NCBI GenBank assembly: GCA_029288615.1
Contig: JARIGV010000025.1
Coordinates: 1 to 35,092 of the forward strand
Reading direction: 5' to 3'
DNA length: 35,092 nt
From: Candidatus Tayloriibacteriota bacterium
GTDB taxonomy: Bacteria; Patescibacteriota; Minisyncoccia; Phycocordibacterales; CAIRYW01
Shown: positions 13,615 to 25,255 of the stretch, in pieces
How the letters are laid out: each line of letters begins with the position of its first letter
Position numbering within the stretch: position 1 is the stretch's first letter
Position numbers and translations under genes: made by a program
Notes under the pieces: model-generated
Databases searched by the model: none
What the model saw: the letters and a program-made list of their open reading frames with translations, nothing else
What the model was told of the DNA's origin: nothing

Positions 13615-13653
13615 AAAACAAAAGCCGCGCCCCTCGGGCGCGGCTTTTGTTTT
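13615..13653. terminator. bidirectional terminator, 18-bp stem
   Basis: AAAACAAAAGCCGCGCCC-ctc-GGGCGCGGCTTTTGTTTT between convergent genes. Confidence 0.85.
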
Positions 13654-16456
13654 ATGATTTCGGTTTCAAAAGATCACCAAACGGATCAGCGGGTAATTTA
13701 GGCTCTGGTGGTGGATCTTTTCTATATTTCTTCATGATATCCGCTTCAACAATATGCCTATCACGGCCATAGGTAAGATATGAAAGCTCTTTGAGTTTGC
13801 TCGCAACCTCTTTATTCCCTTTCTTTGGTGGAAGCGTCTCCATACTAAATGGCCTTACTGGTCTTCCGTTTGCGAGAAGTTTTACATATGCATTTCTATT
13901 ATCAAGATTGATGAGATCATTTGCAGTAAACACTGGTTCGAATTGTTTTTCCAAATATTCTGCATCATCAGCACCGACACGAAATGCTGCAATAGAACCA
14001 ACGTTTCCAAATACAGCGTCTTTTATTTCGTCCTCGAGCTGCGCGATGAATTGGTGAGCAATCGTGAGTGAGAGTTTGTATTTTCGTGCTTCAGAAAGAA
14101 TTTGAGAGATCGAATTTGTCGTAATATTTTGGAATTCATCGATGAAAAGATAAAAAGGTGGAAGATCAGCACCGAGTGAATCTACACGCGAAAGCGCAGA
14201 CATAAGAATCTTTCCAACAATAATAAGACCGATAAGATTTGAGTTGATGTCACCGAGTCTTCCTTTTGAGAGATTTACAAGAAGAATTTTTCTCTTATCC
14301 ATGATCTCTCGGAAATTAAAAGTAGAATGTTCCTGTGCCACGATCGGTCGCATAATGTCATTTGTGAGGAATACATCGAACTTTGATGTGATATACGGCA
14401 CCACATTTGCAAGAGATGCTTCTCCACCTGCCTTATTTGCGATCTCCTGCCAGAATTGAAGAACAACAGGATTCTTGCAGCGAGAAAGTTTGAGTTCACG
14501 GAATTGTTTTGATGCAAGCACGCGTGATACGTCGAGAAGAGTATTTCCTGTTTCCGGATCATCCATCACAAGAAGAACGGCATTTCTAAAATACTGCTCG
14601 AACATAGGCCCACCTGCAGTCTTCATATCAAAAAGCTTATTGAAGATTGAAAGCATTTCATTGACCACAAATGTCTTCTGCTCTGGGAATTTTGGATCAT
14701 ATTCAAGCATGTTGAGAGCCATCGGACGTGGTGCATAGCCTGGATCAAAATAAATCACGTCCTGGTATCTCTCAGGGGGAATAAGAGCAAGAATATCTTC
14801 AATATCATTTCCGTGCGGATCGATCATGCAAACACCGGCACCATTTATAATGTCTTGAATAATCATATTCTTAAGAAGAGTTGTCTTTCCTGTTCCTGTC
14901 TGTCCAATGACATACATATGACGAAGTCGATCCTCGGGGGTTATAAAAATATTATGATGTGCATTGCGATCAACGTTGGCGCCAAGGAGTGTTCCATTTT
15001 CTGGAATATCAACGGGCGCAGGCGCTGTCGCAGCTTTTGCCACTTTAAGATGAGGAGAATTGATACTATTCGCTGGGAAATGAAGAAGAGTTGTCATTTC
15101 ACTGATTGAAAGTGGCACCGCTTCCCCCTTTTCAAATCTTCTATATGAAAAATTTCGAAGTGTTTCCTGAAGTTTTTTTGAAGACACAGCGCTCCAGACG
15201 AGTTTATTTCCTGCTGTATTTTCAAACTGATTAAATGATGATGCTATTTCTGAAGCGATTTGTTCTGCGCGATGAGAATTCTTTGCCGAAGCAACAATTT
15301 TTATATCAGCAAGTAGAATTGGCGAAGCAATTTTCTTCTTAATTTCCTCAATAACCCGCTCATTATTTTCTTTACCAGAGTGTGTCATTCCTAAAAGATC
15401 TTTCACCCCTTCAAATGCGATATCTTTTGTTGCTTTGCCAATCTCACCAAAAACACTATGGCGAATATCAAGTGCTTTTTTCAGTGGCACACCTTTTTCA
15501 AGCTCCTTTAAAGCTTCTTCATAGCGCGATAAATACCCTTCTTTGTCAGGCCGAATGATAACTTGAAGCGCTACACCTTCCCCATCACGGTCTATCTTTG
15601 AAAAAGTATTAAGGAGAACATGGAGAGGATCGTAGTCGAAATCTTCGTAAAGTTTTAAAGGATAAACTGAATTGGTATGTAGATGTGCCGTAAGAGCTGC
15701 TGGGGCGCCGTCGTAATTGAAAATATTGTAATCATCTTTCTTCTCAAAAACTTTCGCTTTCGGAAACACTGAAAGAATGTGTTTTTCAAAAAGATCTTTT
15801 TTACTCTCCGGTACGGCAACAAAAAAGACAGTCTCATGCGAGCCTTCAGGATTCGCAAGCTCAATAGAAAAATAATCATGTTCAGCTGCACTTGAGTTAC
15901 CAACAGAAAGAAGCCCGGCATAAAACTGTTCCATCGAGGAAATCAGTTCTTTGAGAGGCTTTTCGTCGTTCTCGGTTTTATCAGGAAAATTGATTTCGAA
16001 AAGTGCAGTACGAAGATCTTTCGCAAGTTCGCTTCGCCCTTCTACGTCAGGTGCTCCAAGTCCCGCTTTGACATATTGAACAAGAAAACGATGAAAATCG
16101 TCTGTAAGATGAGGATTTCCCATGAGGTCGACAATCGAAAGCGCGTTTCGGATTCCTTTTTCTTGCACGATGGCAAGAAGCTCTTCCATCTTTTTGTCGT
16201 GAGTTTCAGGAGCAAGCTCAAGAACGATTTCTTTCGCTTCTCTTTCAAGCATTTTGTAGCCTTTCTCGAGGACTTCATCAGGATGCTTGTGCGCATAATT
16301 TCGCACCTCTTGTCTGATGATGCTTTCACGGTCTGTCTTTTCAAAATTCTCGCTGACATGTTTCTCTTTATGAGACACAGCACGCAAAAGATGCTCGAGC
16401 TCTGCTTCGGGAGAATTTAGAGAAATGTTTTCAAAAGAAGAATGTTTTGCTTCCAT
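13652..16456 (-). CDS. type IV secretion-type ATPase (VirB4/VirD4/HerA-like)
   Basis: Walker A GQTGTGKTTLLKNMI, Walker B FYLFIDEFQN, MYVIGQTG and IAHQFIAQL segments typical of conjugation-type ATPases. Confidence 0.85.
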   Translation of the reverse strand: MEAKHSSFENISLNSPEAELEHLLRAVSHKEKHVSENFEKTDRESIIRQEVRNYAHKHPDEVLEKGYKMLEREAKEIVLELAPETHDKKMEELLAIVQEKGIRNALSIVDLMGNPHLTDDFHRFLVQYVKAGLGAPDVEGRSELAKDLRTALFEINFPDKTENDEKPLKELISSMEQFYAGLLSVGNSSAAEHDYFSIELANPEGSHETVFFVAVPESKKDLFEKHILSVFPKAKVFEKKDDYNIFNYDGAPAALTAHLHTNSVYPLKLYEDFDYDPLHVLLNTFSKIDRDGEGVALQVIIRPDKEGYLSRYEEALKELEKGVPLKKALDIRHSVFGEIGKATKDIAFEGVKDLLGMTHSGKENNERVIEEIKKKIASPILLADIKIVASAKNSHRAEQIASEIASSFNQFENTAGNKLVWSAVSSKKLQETLRNFSYRRFEKGEAVPLSISEMTTLLHFPANSINSPHLKVAKAATAPAPVDIPENGTLLGANVDRNAHHNIFITPEDRLRHMYVIGQTGTGKTTLLKNMIIQDIINGAGVCMIDPHGNDIEDILALIPPERYQDVIYFDPGYAPRPMALNMLEYDPKFPEQKTFVVNEMLSIFNKLFDMKTAGGPMFEQYFRNAVLLVMDDPETGNTLLDVSRVLASKQFRELKLSRCKNPVVLQFWQEIANKAGGEASLANVVPYITSKFDVFLTNDIMRPIVAQEHSTFNFREIMDKRKILLVNLSKGRLGDINSNLIGLIIVGKILMSALSRVDSLGADLPPFYLFIDEFQNITTNSISQILSEARKYKLSLTIAHQFIAQLEDEIKDAVFGNVGSIAAFRVGADDAEYLEKQFEPVFTANDLINLDNRNAYVKLLANGRPVRPFSMETLPPKKGNKEVASKLKELSYLTYGRDRHIVEADIMKKYRKDPPPEPKLPADPFGDLLKPKS

Positions 16457-16493
16457 TACAAATATTATACCTTGCCGCTTTCAAACTGTGGAA

Positions 16494-19400
16494 CTATTGT
16501 GCAGAGGTTGTGGATGCATCCGAAAAAGTTGTACTTGCATCTGAAGAAGTTACCGCAATGTCTGCGACGGTTGTGTCTGATGAAGTTGCTGTCGTATCAG
16601 ATATGGGAACAATAGTCGGAGTTGAAGTTGATGTTTCTTCTATTGTGGATGTTGCGTTCGTGCTTGAGACAGTTGAAGTTGATTCATCTGCTGGAGAAGA
16701 ATTTTCTGTTGATGATTGCTGTTTGTATGTTGTGACAGTCTGACCTGCATTTCGAAGGAGATTGTCGAGCTCAGTTTTTGTCACACATGTCTCCCCTGTT
16801 GAAGCACTACCAACACACAATGTTTCTTGATGTGAAGTACCGACAAACAAATCATGGATACCATTTGTCGCACTTCCAAACCACTCAACAAGCTTTTTCT
16901 TGAAGTCATCTGTGACGCTTGCGATTTCTTTTACAGCATTCACGAGTGCTGCGATGATTGGCCTATCTGAAAGTGTGAGGAAGCCATTTTTATCGACTCC
17001 AACTGCCTCAGGAATATTTTCTTTAACATTTTGCGCTGAGAATCCAGCATAGACTGTGCCTGTATCAAGACCTGTGTCTGCTTTCCATTTATAAAGAATT
17101 GGATTAATAGCAAGAATCTCCGACAAACTGTCAGTGAAATCTCCTTGGATATCCTTAAGCCTCTCGTCGGATGAAACAGTGAGGTTTCCATTTGCGTCAG
17201 TTGAAAGCGTACCTGCTCCGAAGTTTGCGAACTGCACTGTACCCGTAGTAGTAAGTTGTGCTGCGGGCGAAGACGTACCAATACCTACCTTTCCGAAGTT
17301 GTTGATTATAAAGTTTGTCGAAGTAGCAAGAGCTCCAGATGACGACGCTACAACAAAGAGCGACTGGTTGCCTCCGCCGTAGTTTGAGATTGCCAATTTT
17401 GCACCCGGGCTTGATGTACCAACACCAACAAGACCGCCAGTTGTAACATCAAAGCCTGGAGTATAGGAGTTTGCTTCAAACATCTGCAATTCTTCAAGAC
17501 CAAGATACGCTCCACCGTTGTTTGCTGTAACGTTTATTCTATACGCGCTGTAAAGTGTTGTGTTTGTGAAGGTGTACTGATTCCATCCAGACCAACTTGT
17601 TACGTTTGATCTCGTATCCAACACTACCCAACTTGTTCCGTTATAACCTTCAAAGGTCCAGTTTTTTGGTGCCCACGTTGGGTCGATCGCTCCATACATT
17701 TTATATGAAGTGATAGCTTTTGATGCTGCAAATTGATATGAGAGAAAACCAGAAGTTCCCTGCATGAACCATTTTGTCGTTATCGATCCATCGAATGCTT
17801 GCCATGTAGGCCATGAAGATGCGTTGTATTCTGCTGTTGAAGATGCAATACCACTAGGAGCGGTATAGCTCGTCATTGTAGGCACAGCATTTGTTGCAGC
17901 TATAGGAACGGCCACTTCAAACTGTGATGCAGACGATGTGTTGTTAAGTGACAAAGATCTGTTTGTCGAACTGTAATAGAGTGCACCATTGACGCTAAAG
18001 TTTCCACCACTACCCATGTTGATGCTGTAATTTGGAGATGTTCCAGTTGTCGCAATTGTTGTACCTCCTCCACTATCGACAGTGTATGTCGAATAGTTTG
18101 ATGTATCGTACCCAAGTGTTAATTGATTTGATGTTGTTCCTGTTACCTGAAGAAGAGCTGTTGGGGTTGTTGTACCGATACCAACATTTCCTGTTGTGTA
18201 ATAGATATTATTTCCCGATGTCGTCCATTGTGATGAAGCACCTCCACTTCCACCAATACATGAACCATTGATTGCAAAGCATCCCGCAACCAGATTGATA
18301 CCACCGGTTGTAGAAAATGTTGAAGTCGCCGTGCCGAAGTTAATTCCATTTGTATTACCAACAGAAAGAAGTGAGCCTGGAGTTGTTGTACCAATACCGA
18401 GTTTGCTTCCCGAGAGGACCATAGCAGATGCTCCGCCGACACCGTTGTTTGAGAAGAATAATTTTCCTCCTGTTGTTATGAGTCCAGAGTCGCCCGCTGC
18501 AGTACCAGTGACATAATCATTAGCATTAGCAGCTGAAAACCAATAACCCTCAACAGCAGTTCTTCCTATTGCATATGATGTATAGCTAGTGCTTCCGCCA
18601 GAAAGAAGTTTTATACCTGCATATGGTGTTGCTGGATTACCAGAAACTACGCTTAGCTTTGCGCCAGGACTTGTGTCTCCGATTCCTACATTACCACCCA
18701 CTTTCAAATGGAGTGCATCGGTAGCGTTAGGACCAAGAACAATATCGTACGCGCCGATTGTCGTGAGGTAACCTGAGCTTGGAGCATAAGCAGCACCCGA
18801 AGCAGCAGCACCGGCTTCAAGTACCGCACCTGAGGCAGGCGAAATAATTCCGGCTCGGAATTTTGCATAGGTACCCGTGATATTGTTTGTGATGTTTATT
18901 TGAGCTGTTCTGTCACCTCCCAAAGCAGATGCATATGGACCGAAAACAGAATACACACCATCGCCATTTGCTGATGATGCTGTATCGAAAGTAATTTGAT
19001 CTTTATTGTTTGCATTTGAACCGACAAATGTAAATTTTTGTATTGGTGTTGAAGTGCCCAATCCCACACTTCCATTCGACAAGAAGAGAGTTGATGTACC
19101 TGAAACTGCTGTGCCGCTCGCGCCATAAAATGCAATTTGTCCTAATGTTCCAGAGTTTACTGTTCCACTGCCGCTTCCACTTGAAAAACCAAGAGATGAA
19201 GTCGCTGTCCAGCTTGGCGCTGATCCAGATCCATTCGATACAAGAACGTATCCTGATGTGCCGGCGCTGAAATTTGCTTTAAGAGCGCCAGTAATATTTA
19301 AATCTCCCGCAACAGAAAGAAGACTACCTGGAGATGTCGTACCGATTCCAATATTGCCTCCAAGGAATGTCGCTGCGGCACCTGATCCTTTCTGTTCTAC

Positions 19401-22400
19401 AGCAAGCGTTGGATACGCTGATGTGCTTGAAGCAGAGAGCTGGCCCCAAGGAGTTGTTGAACCAACTCCCACATTTCCATTGAAATAAACACTTGATCCA
19501 CTACTTGTCCAAAGAGGTGAAAGGCCGAGAGAAGAGGTTGCAGTCAGTGTATATCCTCCTGAACTATTTCCTAAAAGAAGTTGTCCGTATGCAGGCGAAG
19601 ATGAAAGTCCTGTACCACCATACGCAATACTTAGTGTCGATGTCGATGAAACAACTCCACCCACAGCTTGAAGTGGACCAGTAAGTGATCCCACTGTAAG
19701 ACCATTTACCGCGGACACAGTAAGAGCCGTTGTTGATGCATAACGGAAGAATGAAGCAGTGCTACCGACTCCATTAAAGTTTGCTGCTGTTGTTGATGCA
19801 TATCCGGTATCATCACCAAGTCGCACATCAAGACCTGCTCCATCTCTCTTAAGAGAAACAAAAGTATTGCTTGCAGAACCTAGAATAATTCGTGGTGATC
19901 CACCACCAGTACTGTCACCAAATCGAAATACTCCATCTGATGCATTAGAAAGAAAACCAGTAATAGTTCCTGAAGTACTATTATCTCCCCACTGAAGTGA
20001 CTGCCCTCCTCCGATAAAGAGTGTACCCGCAACATGAGGCGATGAAGGAATTGAAAGTGTCACTGTATTTCCTGAAACCGATGTAGAAATTTGATTTGCT
20101 GTTCCAACAATTGATGTTGTTGCAGATGTTATACCAAGTGTTGAAGTTGAAATCGCGCCAGTCAAACCACCAATCGATGTAACACCACTGTTTGATAATG
20201 TATTGCCCGACCATGAAAGACCTGTGCCTGCACTAATTTGTGTAGATGGTGTATTGAAAAAAGTATTCCAATTTGAAGATGAGGCAGTGAGTGGAATTGA
20301 ATATCCAGAAGCAACGGAGAAAATTCCATTTGTACTGTCGTATGAAAGTGGTGATGTCGCAGAGAAAACTCCGCGTGATGTTGTTGTAGAAAATGACACA
20401 ATGCCAAGTGTCGATGTCGATACCCACTGTACACCAGATCCTGTTGTCTGAAGAATCTGTCCAGATGTTCCAGCATTGTAATTTGCTTTGAGCGCGCCTG
20501 TTATATTTATATTTCCAGCAACAGTAAGAAGGCTGTCCGGCGAAGTCGTACCGATTCCAAGATTTCCAGCATTTGTAAGACGTGCGAGCTCAACATTACC
20601 ACCGCTTCCACCTGTAAAAATTAAATCCCCTCCTGCAACGTTCTTCAAATAAGTATTTCCCGGAGCATCAGCATTGAAAAGTCCGACATATCGATTTCCT
20701 TGTATCAAACTTACACGCGGTGCACTTGCGTCAGTTGCTATTTCAACTCCATCATTGCTACCAGCAGCACCATCAGTATTGCGGACAAAAATTGCATCAC
20801 GAACATCAAGCTTTGCTTGAGGATCTGAAGTGCCGACGCCAACATTGCCACCACTATAATAAACACTCGATCCATTTGTACCCCACTGTGAAGATGTAAT
20901 TCCAAGAGACGAAGTCGCAACTGTACCGGTCAATCCACCAATTGATGTCACACCATTATTCGTAAGCATGTTACCACTCCATGAAAGACCAGTGCCAGCA
21001 GTGATAGCTGAAGATGGCGTCGTAAGAAAATTCTGCCACGCAGTTGTGGAAGCGGAGAGAGGAATGGAATATCCTGAAGCAACTCCAAAAGTTCCACTTG
21101 AGCTATCGTATGAAAGTGGTGATGTCGCAGAGAAGATTCCTCGTGTTGTTGTTGTAGAAAAAGATGAGATACCAAGTGTCGATGTCGAAATTGCACCCGT
21201 GAGACCGCCGATAGAAGTGACACCACTATTAGAAAGAGTATTCCCTGACCACGAAAGACCAGTACCTGCGGTAATTTGTGTCGACGGTGTATTGAAAAAA
21301 GTATTCCAACTAGAAGACGAGGCAGTAAGTGGGATTGAGTATCCGGAAGTGACACCGAATGTTCCTGTTGAACTATCGTATGAAAGAGATGAGGTAGCGC
21401 TCAAAACTCCTCGTGTTGTTGTCGTACTAAATGATGCACCACCTCCCCCTCCAGAAATTCCCGTAAGATGTGAGCCGTCTCCATAGAATGCATTTGCAGT
21501 GATATTTCCCGTCACAACAAGCGAATCTGCTGCCGCTGTTCCAAGTGTCGAACTTGCAGTTGTAATATTCGAAAGTCCTGTCGCGCTTCCTCCTGAAATA
21601 GTTGAATTAGAAATATTTTTTACATCGATGTTGTTTGTGATGTTTGTGATCGATGAACCAACAGAGCGAGCAAGAGAATCTGCTTGGGTTGAACGTGCGC
21701 CGACGAGAGCCTTATATGTCGCTGTGTTTACAGCAAGAAGTTCTTCGCGAAGATTATTGAGAGTGCTGTAGAAAAGAGATGGTGTAATGGTCGTTGCATT
21801 TGTTTGTGAGCTTAGAACAACAGGTGCTACATTTCCACCATACACCGAAGGCCGTGATGAAACTACTTGAATATTTGGAGATGATGAACTCGTAATACTT
21901 CCTGATGTATCTACAGTGATGTTGACATTGTTATCGTTACCTGTGTTTGGGGTATTGTTGCTTTGTACATACGACGCAACAGTTGGCTGTTCGAAAAGTG
22001 GGACAAGAGGATCAGAGAGTTTGTCGATGATGACATACCACACTTCCCCAACACTAGCGACCGACGCATCCGAAACAGAAACTTTAGGAAGAGAAATATG
22101 CGGAAGTGAAAGATGCGAAAAAGAAGCTGCAAGACTCTTTGTAGCAGAGAGCGGCATACCAATTGTTCCCAATGTGCCGTTACCGATATTTTTATAGAGA
22201 TCAAAAGTATGAGCAAAAAGCGGTATATAACTTTTTTCCACGCTCGCAAACGCAGTAGCAGTGTCTGAAAAGGCTCCAAATGTCGATGTAACGTAAAACT
22301 GACTGAGGAGATTGAGACTAATATTGAAAACAGCGTTTGTCTGAAAGCCAATATCAGTAATTGTAAGGAAATCGGAAACAGTTCCCTCATAAAGAGGTGC

Positions 22401-22523
22401 ATATATATCTTTAATTTTATTCAAAAAACTGTTTTCTTGAGCTTTCGGTGTTGCAGCGTAAGAGAAAAATGGGACAAAAACCAGTGATATGAAAAAGAAA
22501 ATGTATTTTCTTTTTTTATACAT
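16494..22523 (-). CDS. giant secreted fibre/adhesin-like protein with C-terminal Peptidase_S74 intramolecular chaperone domain
   Basis: N-terminal signal/TM segment; about ten [NK]xG[IV]GTxxPxxxL repeats; three ~90-aa tandem-type repeats; SDERLKDI...FSAQNVKENIPEAV S74 signature; Ser/Thr tail. Confidence 0.88.
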   Translation of the reverse strand: MYKKRKYIFFFISLVFVPFFSYAATPKAQENSFLNKIKDIYAPLYEGTVSDFLTITDIGFQTNAVFNISLNLLSQFYVTSTFGAFSDTATAFASVEKSYIPLFAHTFDLYKNIGNGTLGTIGMPLSATKSLAASFSHLSLPHISLPKVSVSDASVASVGEVWYVIIDKLSDPLVPLFEQPTVASYVQSNNTPNTGNDNNVNITVDTSGSITSSSSPNIQVVSSRPSVYGGNVAPVVLSSQTNATTITPSLFYSTLNNLREELLAVNTATYKALVGARSTQADSLARSVGSSITNITNNIDVKNISNSTISGGSATGLSNITTASSTLGTAAADSLVVTGNITANAFYGDGSHLTGISGGGGGASFSTTTTRGVLSATSSLSYDSSTGTFGVTSGYSIPLTASSSSWNTFFNTPSTQITAGTGLSWSGNTLSNSGVTSIGGLTGAISTSTLGISSFSTTTTRGIFSATSPLSYDSSSGTFGVASGYSIPLSASTTAWQNFLTTPSSAITAGTGLSWSGNMLTNNGVTSIGGLTGTVATSSLGITSSQWGTNGSSVYYSGGNVGVGTSDPQAKLDVRDAIFVRNTDGAAGSNDGVEIATDASAPRVSLIQGNRYVGLFNADAPGNTYLKNVAGGDLIFTGGSGGNVELARLTNAGNLGIGTTSPDSLLTVAGNINITGALKANYNAGTSGQILQTTGSGVQWVSTSTLGIVSFSTTTSRGVFSATSPLSYDSTNGIFSVASGYSIPLTASSSNWNTFFNTPSTQISAGTGLSWSGNTLSNSGVTSIGGLTGAISTSTLGITSATTSIVGTANQISTSVSGNTVTLSIPSSPHVAGTLFIGGGQSLQWGDNSTSGTITGFLSNASDGVFRFGDSTGGGSPRIILGSASNTFVSLKRDGAGLDVRLGDDTGYASTTAANFNGVGSTASFFRYASTTALTVSAVNGLTVGSLTGPLQAVGGVVSSTSTLSIAYGGTGLSSSPAYGQLLLGNSSGGYTLTATSSLGLSPLWTSSGSSVYFNGNVGVGSTTPWGQLSASSTSAYPTLAVEQKGSGAAATFLGGNIGIGTTSPGSLLSVAGDLNITGALKANFSAGTSGYVLVSNGSGSAPSWTATSSLGFSSGSGSGTVNSGTLGQIAFYGASGTAVSGTSTLFLSNGSVGLGTSTPIQKFTFVGSNANNKDQITFDTASSANGDGVYSVFGPYASALGGDRTAQINITNNITGTYAKFRAGIISPASGAVLEAGAAASGAAYAPSSGYLTTIGAYDIVLGPNATDALHLKVGGNVGIGDTSPGAKLSVVSGNPATPYAGIKLLSGGSTSYTSYAIGRTAVEGYWFSAANANDYVTGTAAGDSGLITTGGKLFFSNNGVGGASAMVLSGSKLGIGTTTPGSLLSVGNTNGINFGTATSTFSTTGGINLVAGCFAINGSCIGGSGGASSQWTTSGNNIYYTTGNVGIGTTTPTALLQVTGTTSNQLTLGYDTSNYSTYTVDSGGGTTIATTGTSPNYSINMGSGGNFSVNGALYYSSTNRSLSLNNTSSASQFEVAVPIAATNAVPTMTSYTAPSGIASSTAEYNASSWPTWQAFDGSITTKWFMQGTSGFLSYQFAASKAITSYKMYGAIDPTWAPKNWTFEGYNGTSWVVLDTRSNVTSWSGWNQYTFTNTTLYSAYRINVTANNGGAYLGLEELQMFEANSYTPGFDVTTGGLVGVGTSSPGAKLAISNYGGGNQSLFVVASSSGALATSTNFIINNFGKVGIGTSSPAAQLTTTGTVQFANFGAGTLSTDANGNLTVSSDERLKDIQGDFTDSLSEILAINPILYKWKADTGLDTGTVYAGFSAQNVKENIPEAVGVDKNGFLTLSDRPIIAALVNAVKEIASVTDDFKKKLVEWFGSATNGIHDLFVGTSHQETLCVGSASTGETCVTKTELDNLLRNAGQTVTTYKQQSSTENSSPADESTSTVSSTNATSTIEETSTSTPTIVPISDTTATSSDTTVADIAVTSSDASTTFSDASTTSAQ
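17154..17171 (-). other. predicted S74 autocleavage dyad SDERLK
   Basis: Ser and Lys five residues apart, as in endosialidase-type chaperone domains. Confidence 0.7.
17475..17890 (-). other. discoidin / F5-8 type C-like domain within the giant protein
   Basis: ASSTAEYNASSWPTWQAFDGSITTKWFMQ...YQFAASKAITSYKMYG...PKNWTFEGYNGTSWVVLDTR...YRINVTANNGGAYLGLEELQMFE. Confidence 0.7.
20140..21440 (-). repeat. three ~90-aa coding repeats (approx. 20140-20400, 20905-21165, 21175-21435)
   Basis: Near-identical SFSTTTxRGxxSATSxLSYDS...GYSIPL..TPS..I.AGTGLSWSGN.L.N.GVTSIGGLTG blocks. Confidence 0.85.
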
Positions 22524-22546
22524 AGAGATTAGTACAATTTTAACAT

Positions 22547-22570
22547 AAAAACCGCATCAAAGCGGTTTAA
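22547..22570 (-). terminator. Rho-independent terminator after map
   Basis: Minus strand AAACCGC-tttgat-GCGGTTT followed by TTATGTT. Confidence 0.55.
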
Positions 22571-22598: not shown

Positions 22599-23369
22599 TT
22601 AAAGTGTTGTGAGAATCTCTGGTCCTTTTTTTGTGATAACAACAGTATGTTCGAAGTGTGCACTTCGTTTTTTATCGACAGTTGCATAGGTATAACCATC
22701 GCGAAGCACCCGAACACGTGATGTTCCTTCGTTAACAATCGGTTCGATCGCAATGACCATGCCAGGTTTAAGAGAAACTCCCTGCCCTTTCCTTCCAAAA
22801 TTTGGTACAAACGGATCTTCGTGCTGAGCATAACCAACTCCGTGGCCTCCAAGATTTTCTGCAAGAGAAAAACCTTTTGGTTTGACGTATTTTTCAATTG
22901 CTTCGCCGATATCACCCGTTTTCTTTCCCACTTGTGCTGCATCAATACCTCGCATCATTGCTTCTTCCGTAGTCTTTAAAAGTTTTTCAGCTTTAGCATC
23001 AATCTTTCCGCAACCAACCGTGATTGCTGAATCTGTGTAGAGTCCTTCAAAAATAATTCCAGAGTCAATCGAAACAATATCCCCTTCATTAATGATACGA
23101 TTATTTTCATTTGGAATTCCGTGCACCACTTCGTCATTTATTGAAATACACACAGCTGCAGGATATGGACGCTTTGCTCCATAAGGCGTGTAGCCTAAAA
23201 AAGCAGATTCGGCTCCGGCCTTTTTCATAAGAAAGCGCGCTTTGTCATCGAGATCAAGTGTGTGTACTCCTGGCACAATCATGTCTTTAAGCGACGCCAA
23301 AATCTCCGCGAGAATTTTTCCACCACGTCTGAGGCTTTCTATTTCTTCTCCTGTTTTTATCGTCACCAT
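22599..23369 (-). CDS. map: type I methionine aminopeptidase
   Basis: GVHTLDLD, EVVHGIPN, SIDSGI, GGHGVGYAQHEDP, EP(I)VNEG motifs; after adk. Confidence 0.95.
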   Translation of the reverse strand: MVTIKTGEEIESLRRGGKILAEILASLKDMIVPGVHTLDLDDKARFLMKKAGAESAFLGYTPYGAKRPYPAAVCISINDEVVHGIPNENNRIINEGDIVSIDSGIIFEGLYTDSAITVGCGKIDAKAEKLLKTTEEAMMRGIDAAQVGKKTGDIGEAIEKYVKPKGFSLAENLGGHGVGYAQHEDPFVPNFGRKGQGVSLKPGMVIAIEPIVNEGTSRVRVLRDGYTYATVDKKRSAHFEHTVVITKKGPEILTTL

Positions 23370-23977
23370 TAGGAGTTAAAAATTTTTGAAACGATTTCCT
23401 TGTGTACGTCGTCAATCGCCTGTTCTCCGTTGATCTCATTGAAAATAACTTTCGTATCGGTCTTATAGAGATCGATGATTGGTACGATTGCTTCTTCAAA
23501 CCATCCCATACGTCGTGCTATTGCATCCGCTTCATCATCATGCCGCGCTCGCTTCAAAAGTTTTTCTGTCGCCCACTCTTTCGATACGTTCATAAAAACA
23601 ATATGAACTTTAGCAAAGTCAAAAACTTTTGGCTTATCATAAAAATAAAAAATTGTATCAAGTATCGCTTTCTCAGCAAGTGTACGAGGAGACCCATCGA
23701 TGATCATGTGAGTATTTTCTTTGAAATCTCTCGCGATCACATTCGCCCACATCATTGATGCAAGAAAAGATGGCACAAAGTTTCCTGCATCAATAATTCT
23801 TTTAGCTTCATTTGCAGTGTATGTGCCCGTCTGCATGAATTTTCGAAATTCATCACCTGTTGCAACATAGAAAACATCTTGCGATGTATTTTTTTTAAGA
23901 TACTCAGAAAGAAGAGCGGTCTGCGTACCTTTGCCGCAGCCGCTTCTTCCTAAGAATACGAAGAGTTCTGGTTTCAT
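23369..23977 (-). CDS. adk: adenylate kinase-like nucleoside monophosphate kinase
   Basis: GRSGCGKGTQ P-loop, TGDEFR, DGSPRT, RARHDDEADAIARRM; secY-adk-map order. Confidence 0.88.
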   Translation of the reverse strand: MKPELFVFLGRSGCGKGTQTALLSEYLKKNTSQDVFYVATGDEFRKFMQTGTYTANEAKRIIDAGNFVPSFLASMMWANVIARDFKENTHMIIDGSPRTLAEKAILDTIFYFYDKPKVFDFAKVHIVFMNVSKEWATEKLLKRARHDDEADAIARRMGWFEEAIVPIIDLYKTDTKVIFNEINGEQAIDDVHKEIVSKIFNS

Positions 23978-23980
23978 TCT

Positions 23981-25255
23981 TTAATATTCTCGCATTGAGA
24001 TCTGTGCGTCAACTTTTTTGACGAGATCAATCACCACTGAGACAACGATAAGAAGCGCTGTACCACCGATTGCAACAGATGTAATTCCTGTGATCGCTTT
24101 CATGGCAAGTGGAAGCACTGCAACGAAGCCAAGGAATGTTGCGCCAACAAGAGTGATTCGTGTAAGGATCTTTGCGATATATTCAGATGTAGATTGTCCT
24201 GGGCGAACTCCAGGAATAAACGCACCACTCTTCTGGAGATTTTCTGCGATCTGATGTGGATCGAAAGTGACCGCTGTGTAGAAGTATGTGAAGAGGAATA
24301 CAAAGAGGAAATAAAGGATCGCGTATGTCCATCCATTTGCAAGCCATGAAAGAATAGTCGCCGCGACATCGTGAATTGTTCCTGTAGGATAGCTTCCGAT
24401 CACGAAGTTTAAAATAAGCTGTGGGAAAAGAAGGATTGAGAGAGCGAAGATGATTGGAATTACTCCGGCCTGATTAAGACGAAGTGGAAGATATGTTGAA
24501 ACACCTCCGTACACTCGATTACCTCGTACACGCTTTGCGTACGTCACAGGAATTGGTCGTTCCGCTTCTGTGATATAGACCACCGCATACACAATGAGGA
24601 ATGCTACCGCAACGAAAAGAATATAGAGAGCGAGTTTTGACTGATCGTATGAGAAGAGCACCTGGCTGATACCTCGAGGAAGCGCCGCAACGATACCAGA
24701 GAAAATAATGAGTGATACTCCGTTTCCAATTCCAAATTCAGTAATGAGCTCACCGAGCCACATGAGAAGGATTGAACCTGTTGTAATCACCACAACGTTC
24801 ACTGTGAAATCAAAAGATGAAAGATTTCCAAGGATCGCCTGTTTTTCAAGAAGAATGATAAAACCGATAGACTGCACAAGAGCGAGAGGAACAGCAAGAA
24901 GACGTGAGTACTGGCTGAATTTCTTTCGTCCTGCCTCCCCTTCTTCCTGATACATGCGCTTGAGACCATCAAACATCATTGTAAGAAGCTGCATGATGAT
25001 CGATGCAGTAATGTAAGGACCAACGCCGAGCATCACGAGAGAGAGGTTTGAAAGTCCTCCTCCAGAGAAAACGTTGAGAAGTCCGAAGAATTGGTTATTT
25101 GCAAAAAATGCGACGAGTTTTACACGGTCAATTCCTGGAATTGGGATTGAAGCAAGCGCACGGAAAACAACAAGAGCTCCGAGCGTAAAAAGAATTCGCG
25201 TACGGAGAGTCTTGTCTTCGAATACAAGTCTTATTTTTTCGAGAAATGTTTGCAT
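23981..25255 (-). CDS. secY: preprotein translocase subunit SecY
   Basis: Multi-TM; PGID, YITASIIMQLLT, GNGVSLIIFSGI, NRVYGGVSTYLPLRLNQAGVIPIIFA. Confidence 0.97.
   Translation of the reverse strand: MQTFLEKIRLVFEDKTLRTRILFTLGALVVFRALASIPIPGIDRVKLVAFFANNQFFGLLNVFSGGGLSNLSLVMLGVGPYITASIIMQLLTMMFDGLKRMYQEEGEAGRKKFSQYSRLLAVPLALVQSIGFIILLEKQAILGNLSSFDFTVNVVVITTGSILLMWLGELITEFGIGNGVSLIIFSGIVAALPRGISQVLFSYDQSKLALYILFVAVAFLIVYAVVYITEAERPIPVTYAKRVRGNRVYGGVSTYLPLRLNQAGVIPIIFALSILLFPQLILNFVIGSYPTGTIHDVAATILSWLANGWTYAILYFLFVFLFTYFYTAVTFDPHQIAENLQKSGAFIPGVRPGQSTSEYIAKILTRITLVGATFLGFVAVLPLAMKAITGITSVAIGGTALLIVVSVVIDLVKKVDAQISMREY

Follow-up and report, generated by a model that had tools for sequence, protein, structure and literature searches.

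The locus described here raises the question of what a giant protein with a self-cleaving chaperone, of a kind also found in phage tail fibers, does in a genome of the Patescibacteria, ultrasmall bacteria that are widely inferred to be epibionts on other cells. The window, i.e., the whole stretch of DNA that was analyzed, comprises 35,092 nucleotides (contig JARIGV010000025.1 of the Candidatus Tayloriibacteriota assembly GCA_029288615.1), and the gene in question lies on contig C36 of this 788-kb genome, which is 98.8% complete. An open reading frame (ORF) of 2009 amino acids at 16494-22523 had been noted in the initial annotation without a strand; the frame exists, and its true strand is minus. 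We propose, with a probability of about two in three, that its product is a chromosomal, Sec-exported, trimeric adhesive fiber that is self-cleaved before Ser1785, carries a sugar-binding domain near its tip, and grips surface glycans.

The proposal starts from the C-terminal part of the chain, where Peptidase_S74 (Pfam PF13884) matches residues 1785-1841 with 39.4 bits against a cut-off of 22 (E 7.6e-10) and is the sole Pfam domain reported in the full-length scan. The domain had been predicted from its sequence pattern in the initial annotation, together with a Ser-to-Lys spacing of five residues; the profile search confirms the former, and Ser1785 and Lys1790 supply the latter. The features concerned are the following.

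16494..22523, minus strand: fiber gene, 2009 amino acids, one open frame whose N-terminal region is homologous to the syntenic protein of genome G003
17001..17171, minus strand: Peptidase_S74, or intramolecular chaperone auto-processing (ICA), domain, residues 1785-1841, with structural matches to the MYRF ICA domain and 3gw6
17169..17171, minus strand: Ser1785, predicted nucleophile with cleavage just before it, corresponding to MYRF S587 and endoNF S911
17154..17156, minus strand: Lys1790, predicted general base

Across 113 Patescibacteria domain alignments, counted over the rows with a residue in the column, the serine is present in 107/107 and the lysine in 109/109, and these two columns, along with one Ala and one Gly, are the most conserved of the domain. 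Since the dyad is invariant across the Patescibacteria, autoproteolysis is probably under selection, and self-cleavage at Ser1785/Lys1790 is probably retained in the window protein. The Ser-Lys dyad has been reported to be indispensable for cleavage in MYRF and endoNF (PMC8326128). A single-chain AlphaFold (AF2) model of residues 1714-1945, with a mean predicted local distance difference test (pLDDT) score of 72.9 and values mostly of 81-90 across S74, contains the ICA fold and a C-terminal coiled-coil helix; Foldseek aligned it with the MYRF ICA domain 7dc3 (E 1e-5, probability 1.00, 28% identity), its best structural match, and with the endosialidase chaperone 3gw6 (probability 0.63-0.89). 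A profile of the stalk plus S74 matched, among PDB entries, the phage tail fiber 8jov, MYRF 7dc3, the phage long tail fiber 6f45, and five mosaic adhesive trimeric (MAT) fibers of Bdellovibrio, the last through the VGIGTxxP motif (8ond, 8oml, 8ojn, 8on4, and weakly 8ol4).

The chain that precedes the predicted cleavage site can be divided as listed below.

22455..22523, minus strand: N-terminal hydrophobic signal, residues 1-23, with an AxA-like site SYA^A, from sequence inspection
21489..22454, minus strand: residues 24-345, an N-terminal region whose fold is unrecognized and which is rich in helix just ahead of the fiber
17904..21488, minus strand: residues 346-1540, a low-charge repeat body; its seven VGIGTxxP-type motifs align to the Bdellovibrio MAT structures
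17466..17903, minus strand: CBM32, or F5/8 type C-like, carbohydrate-binding domain, residues 1541-1686
17172..17465, minus strand: residues 1687-1784, the stalk of the fiber tip, which holds the remaining two motifs (VGxGTSSP), from motif positions and the profile search

Residues 1541-1686, which are absent from the description in the initial annotation, matched phrog_17517 (E 8.5e-26) and a stretch of the GH92 mannosidase 7nsn (phmmer, E 1.3e-20), and their AF2 model (pLDDT 82.8) was aligned by Foldseek with 7nsn (E 1.2e-11) and with many CBM32 structures at a probability of 1.00; neither CBM32 nor F5/8 type C was reported for these residues in the full-length Pfam scan. The segment is thus CBM32-like and forms a predicted sugar-binding domain below the chaperone. 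A second S74 fiber of the genome, on contig C25 (1308 amino acids), carries PA14 at residues 719-815 (56.5 bits), and the adhesive reading is strengthened because predicted sugar-binding modules occur in both fiber genes. Elsewhere, an S74 domain 70% identical over 128 amino acids is joined to a GDSL acylhydrolase (L037), and the S74 fiber of L028 has right-handed beta-helix repeats; judged by these predicted domains, a constant assembly end with exchanged cargo looks like the organization of adhesins and depolymerases.

CBM32 and PA14 bind diverse glycans, and the predicted carbohydrate binding equally fits attachment to biofilms or particles. A surface-layer or biofilm/particle-binding fiber, built by the same assembly chemistry and directed at an environmental polysaccharide or the cell's own coat, would also be in keeping with the Bacteroidota records, which contain up to 16 S74 proteins each and belong to organisms not known to be epibionts. 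However, the diverged body and swapped modules among related fibers point to recognition more than to a rigid structural lattice, and the epibiotic life widely inferred for the Patescibacteria argues in the same direction. In a cultured Saccharibacterium, moreover, adhesin-like proteins are essential (PMC11665869). We regard this explanation as unlikely.

The remainder of the chain has the make-up of a secreted fiber, as had been read from the sequence in the initial annotation, where a hydrophobic N-terminal signal and a long repeat body were described. The N-terminal hydrophobic segment, MYKKRKYIFFFISLVFVPFFSYA^ATP, is signal-peptide-like by eye, and the repeat body is composed of S/T/G/N/A to 62%, with 5.8% charged residues. 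Nine [VIL]G[IV]G[TSD]xxP motifs are present in the protein, seven in the body and two in the tip stalk, and larger repeats, e.g., GTGLSWSGN, also occur in the body. In a phmmer comparison within a set of 18 proteins, residues 24-345 matched nothing but the syntenic fiber of G003, weakly yet significantly (E 2e-6) and in short stretches such as IIDKxSxPLVPLF and NxLRxExxxxNT. In many Patescibacteria fibers, a YxPGxTLxPxCxPxDxNC-like motif with two cysteines directly follows the signal peptide (L026, L029, L034, L037, L183, L252, L269, and L271); the window protein is without it.

The strongest analogy is with the MAT fibers of Bdellovibrio bacteriovorus, a family of solved trimeric beta-helices that serves prey handling and in which S74 self-cleavage of Bd3182 at S782 has been demonstrated (PMC10769870). 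The likeness covers a large, chromosomal, secreted fiber with a signal peptide (here by inspection), a beta-helical stalk with a capping-loop motif, an S74 domain with an SDxxxK-type motif, and adhesive domains near the tip; it extends to the organism, since Bdellovibrio lives on other bacteria. However, S74 is described as terminating the MAT protein, whereas 168 amino acids follow the S74 match in the window protein, and the tips are TNF-like or C-type lectin domains in MATs but CBM32-like here. MATs also have a beta-rich domain of ~130 amino acids after the signal peptide, while the N-terminal region of the window protein, for which no MAT N-termini were compared, is different or unrecognized. 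Given the internal position of S74 and the differing or unrecognized N-terminal region, the analogy is no proof of membership; the window protein is MAT-like and is not assigned as a MAT member.

On the domain content, dyad conservation, fold, and chromosomal locus established by computation, we infer trimerization, cleavage, surface display, glycan binding, and host attachment in the following form. The protein would be exported by Sec with its N-terminus first, so that the N-terminal region stays proximal to the cell, and S74 near the C-terminus would nucleate the trimer and thread its stalk, a triple beta-helix. Correct folding of the trimer would be followed by a cut just before Ser1785, made by the Ser1785-Lys1790 dyad. 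This would leave a mature fiber of ~1,760 residues per chain with an exposed beta-helix tip and the CBM32-like domain just below it, which may bind surface glycans, most likely on a host cell. The C-terminal piece set free by the cut, 225 amino acids comprising the chaperone, a helix, a double-cysteine hairpin, and a Ser/Thr tail, would form a trimer of its own.

Several observations weigh against the proposed host-gripping fiber. A sugar ligand does not by itself show that the target is a living host. No cell-wall anchor (LPxTG or SLH) was seen in the fiber protein, and retention of the fiber on the cell is for this reason unproven. Two of the four genomes of the family (one of them 71% complete) have no S74 match, and the lifestyle of the family as a whole therefore does not depend on the fiber. 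Furthermore, the conserved extension after S74 fits poorly with a simple model in which the chaperone is discarded.

Whether the gene belongs to the cell or to a phage is decided largely by its surroundings.

22599..25255, minus strand: map, adk, and secY, conserved upstream neighbors, syntenic within the taxonomic order
13652..16456, minus strand: TraG/VirD4-like ATPase gene, conserved downstream neighbor
22549..22568, minus strand: terminator-like hairpin in the interval between map and the fiber gene, based solely on a consensus scan, in which 7 were found where 4.5 are expected

The fiber gene is flanked by ribosomal-protein, secY-adk-map, and TraG genes. In relatives covering the region, the secY-adk-map-TraG order is mostly kept without a fiber gene (L049, L053, L056, L057, L058, L061, and L062; L055 over the part covered) and is, as judged from this gene order, ancestral in the taxonomic order of the source organism. 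A fiber gene of ~2,000 amino acids lies between map and TraG both in the window and in G003 (L027), of the same family but another genus, whereas the interval in G001 (same family) is only ~850 bp. Beyond their short N-terminal similarity, the window and G003 fibers are 30% identical across the C-terminal part, and most of the body has diverged.

These data bear directly on the possibility of a prophage or domesticated-phage tail fiber with a present or past function on virions. Phage tail proteins include relatives of both S74 and the CBM32-like domain, so that the two domains probably have, at some depth, a common history with phages. Phage endosialidase and the T5 L-shaped tail fiber (3GW6, 4UW8) resemble the window protein in the Ser-Lys dyad five residues apart, the same fold (3gw6, Foldseek), and the fiber upstream; however, they are cytosol-made virion proteins that lack the N-terminal signal present here and are not encoded at chromosomal housekeeping loci, and in phages S74 is C-terminal, with 1-14 amino acids after it. 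A phage origin is further opposed by the conservation of the flanking gene order through the taxonomic order and by the presence, at this locus in a second genus, of a fiber gene whose N-terminus is homologous. In PHROGs, the neighbors on the 35-kb contig matched families of hydrolase, kinase-type, or unknown function and, weakly, a P-loop terminase; no gene for a capsid, portal, or tail protein was found near the fiber gene. Flanking phage structural genes had been named in the initial annotation as the finding that would make this a prophage tail gene; the neighbors are instead housekeeping genes, and the chromosomal location downstream of secY-adk-map given there agrees with gene content and synteny. 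Prophage origin was rejected on synteny and neighbors, being largely refuted by the 35-kb contig, and we consider it very improbable.

The TraG/VirD4-like ATPase adjoins map in most relatives examined, and its homologs, found in 41/41 genomes, mark it as a core gene; it is thus not fiber-specific, and an operon role specific to the fiber and this ATPase was rejected, as the homologs are universal in the relatives and usually stand beside map without a fiber. The terminator-like hairpin upstream suggests a separate transcript for the fiber gene. By eye, -10-like boxes are located ~7-10 bases before the ATG of both the TraG-like gene and the fiber gene (16457-16500 and 22524-22560, minus strand), which suggests leaderless transcripts of the two.

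The part of the protein that departs most from known S74 fibers follows the S74 match.

16839..17000, minus strand: C-terminal part of S74 and a long helix (model helix residues 1853-1893), from the AF2 model
16728..16838, minus strand: double-cysteine module (C1903, C1913), a beta hairpin plus helix, AF2 pLDDT 82-89
16497..16718, minus strand: low-complexity Ser/Thr tail, residues 1936-2009, 54% S+T, with similar tails in many Patescibacteria relatives

In the initial annotation, a Ser/Thr-rich tail of about 80 residues after the chaperone was called unusual. The tail exists and does lie after S74, but it is 74 amino acids long, and ~94 amino acids of helix and double-cysteine module intervene between the S74 match and the tail. 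It is not a peculiarity of the window protein, a notion that was rejected: 110/123 Patescibacteria S74 proteins have at least 60 amino acids after S74 (median 216, the longest lengths being lower bounds, as some loci are cut off at the end of the stretch covered) compared with 1/32 of those outside, i.e., in phages and three Bacteroidota records, where the median lengths are 8 and 33 amino acids, respectively (Fisher p 4e-21, uncorrected for phylogeny, the sequences not being phylogenetically independent). The earlier interpretation is partly supported: a chromosomal, secreted, probably trimeric fiber with a conserved self-cleaving chaperone is upheld, the oddity ascribed to its tail is not, and host attachment, also proposed there, may be its function.

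The double-cysteine module recurs in 20 sequences, with both cysteines invariant, and in its own genome is confined to the two S74 proteins. In L164, the module and a low-complexity tail also follow a Peptidase_G2-like domain (21.5 bits, below the cut-off of 25), Peptidase_G2 being the other self-cleaving tail chaperone; because of this occurrence, the module seems to go with self-cleaving chaperones generally and not with S74 alone. No Peptidase_G2 was found in the source genome. L162 and L166 show, by eye only, the module after a Peptidase_G2-like domain in place of S74. If cleavage occurs, the extension would depart with the chaperone, and the most economical readings are a C-terminal trimer with a use of its own or an aid for the chaperone in clearing the envelope before folding.

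The first of these would make the fiber a two-product surface protein, whose C-terminal piece (S74, double-cysteine module, and Ser/Thr tail) is itself functional, whether it stays attached to the cell or leaves it as a soluble trimer; self-cleavage would then separate two working parts, as in MYRF. In MYRF (7DC3; PMC8326128, PMC3742443), S74 is likewise internal, a further C-terminal part follows, and cleavage yields two products. The prevalence of the extension among the Patescibacteria, the invariant cysteines, and the recurrence of the module after Peptidase_G2-like domains all speak for such a protein, whereas the tail is of low complexity and unconserved, ~10% of Patescibacteria S74 proteins have no extension, and the double-cysteine module has no known function. 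We hold the two-product arrangement to be possible but tentative; it is compatible with the adhesive fiber and would extend it. Two further forms were seen in the sample: an intein/Hint-like domain after S74 (L069:1-2160 and L109:1-1290; Pfam below cut-off), possibly a second self-processing element, and two S74 domains per ORF (L099:1-3456 and L115:1-1533), the second in L115 without the dyad motif.

S74 was found above the cut-off in 18/41 relatives and in 91/380 genomes sampled across the phylum. Ca. Kaiserbacteria, Taylorbacteria, and other Parcubacteria, along with a few Bacteroidota, are the named best matches to the S74 part. These matches and the small genomes of the relatives are the basis for placing the organism, which had been called a probable candidate phyla radiation member from the sequence, in the Patescibacteria. 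The three Bacteroidota records (G419, G420, and G421; Saprospirales, Flavobacteriales, and Lewinellaceae) contain 7 to 16 S74 proteins each; in the proteins that were measured, the domain lies at the C-terminus or close to it.

In a survey of 29 S74 ORFs with a readable N-terminus, a non-random sample of long frames, 14 begin with a hydrophobic signal and at least nine with a DNA-binding domain above the Pfam cut-off: MerR in G174, G186, G229, G281, and G103, HTH_17 in G225, and integrase SAM_1 in G045, G392, and G308. G068 has the same SAM-type N-terminal sequence, by sequence likeness rather than by Pfam scan. The DNA-binding domain and S74 share one stop-free frame in all of these genomes. 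All six MerR/HTH proteins have a membrane segment after the DNA-binding domain, and G045 and G068 have a weaker one; in G392 and G308, none was seen in the scan. The fusion loci are L249, L250, L264, L272, L276, L280, L256, L278, and L279, with L281 similar. Within the same taxonomic order as the window, L028:4461-10673 and L030:6800-10804 have an HTH_17-like start below the cut-off and a membrane segment.

At the level of predicted domains, a DNA-binding domain joined to S74 is a MYRF-like combination. In MYRF, however, the DNA-binding domain precedes S74 and the membrane segment follows it, whereas several of the Patescibacteria relatives carry both before the fiber, and the window protein has neither. 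Because the membrane segment precedes the fiber in the fusions, cleavage would not free the DNA-binding part. It may be speculated that S74, taken from phage, serves as an internal self-cleaving joint of giant Patescibacteria surface fibers that yields two working trimers. The relatives with DNA-binding domains might then link transcription or DNA binding, through the membrane, to contact with a host or to assembly of the fiber. Such a system would be a bacterial equivalent of MYRF, with the window protein as its signal-peptide-type member; as a whole, this scheme is doubtful.

The S74 domain and S74-bearing bacterial fibers are already known; new are the internal S74 with a conserved downstream module in the Patescibacteria and the fusions of S74 fibers to DNA-binding domains. 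In the open-license literature, no paper was found on S74 in Patescibacteria (one search being narrow), on the internal-S74 form, or on DNA-binding-domain S74 fusions. For most Patescibacteria, the means of recognizing and holding a host is an open question, and the structures usually considered are type IV pili and unnamed adhesin-like proteins. With a predicted sugar-binding domain near its tip, a self-maturing fiber would offer a directly testable receptor-binding protein, which can be expressed in E. coli without cultivating the organism. The internal S74 with its downstream module, together with the DNA-binding fusions, would broaden the range of a mechanism already described in phages, Bdellovibrio, and animal MYRF.

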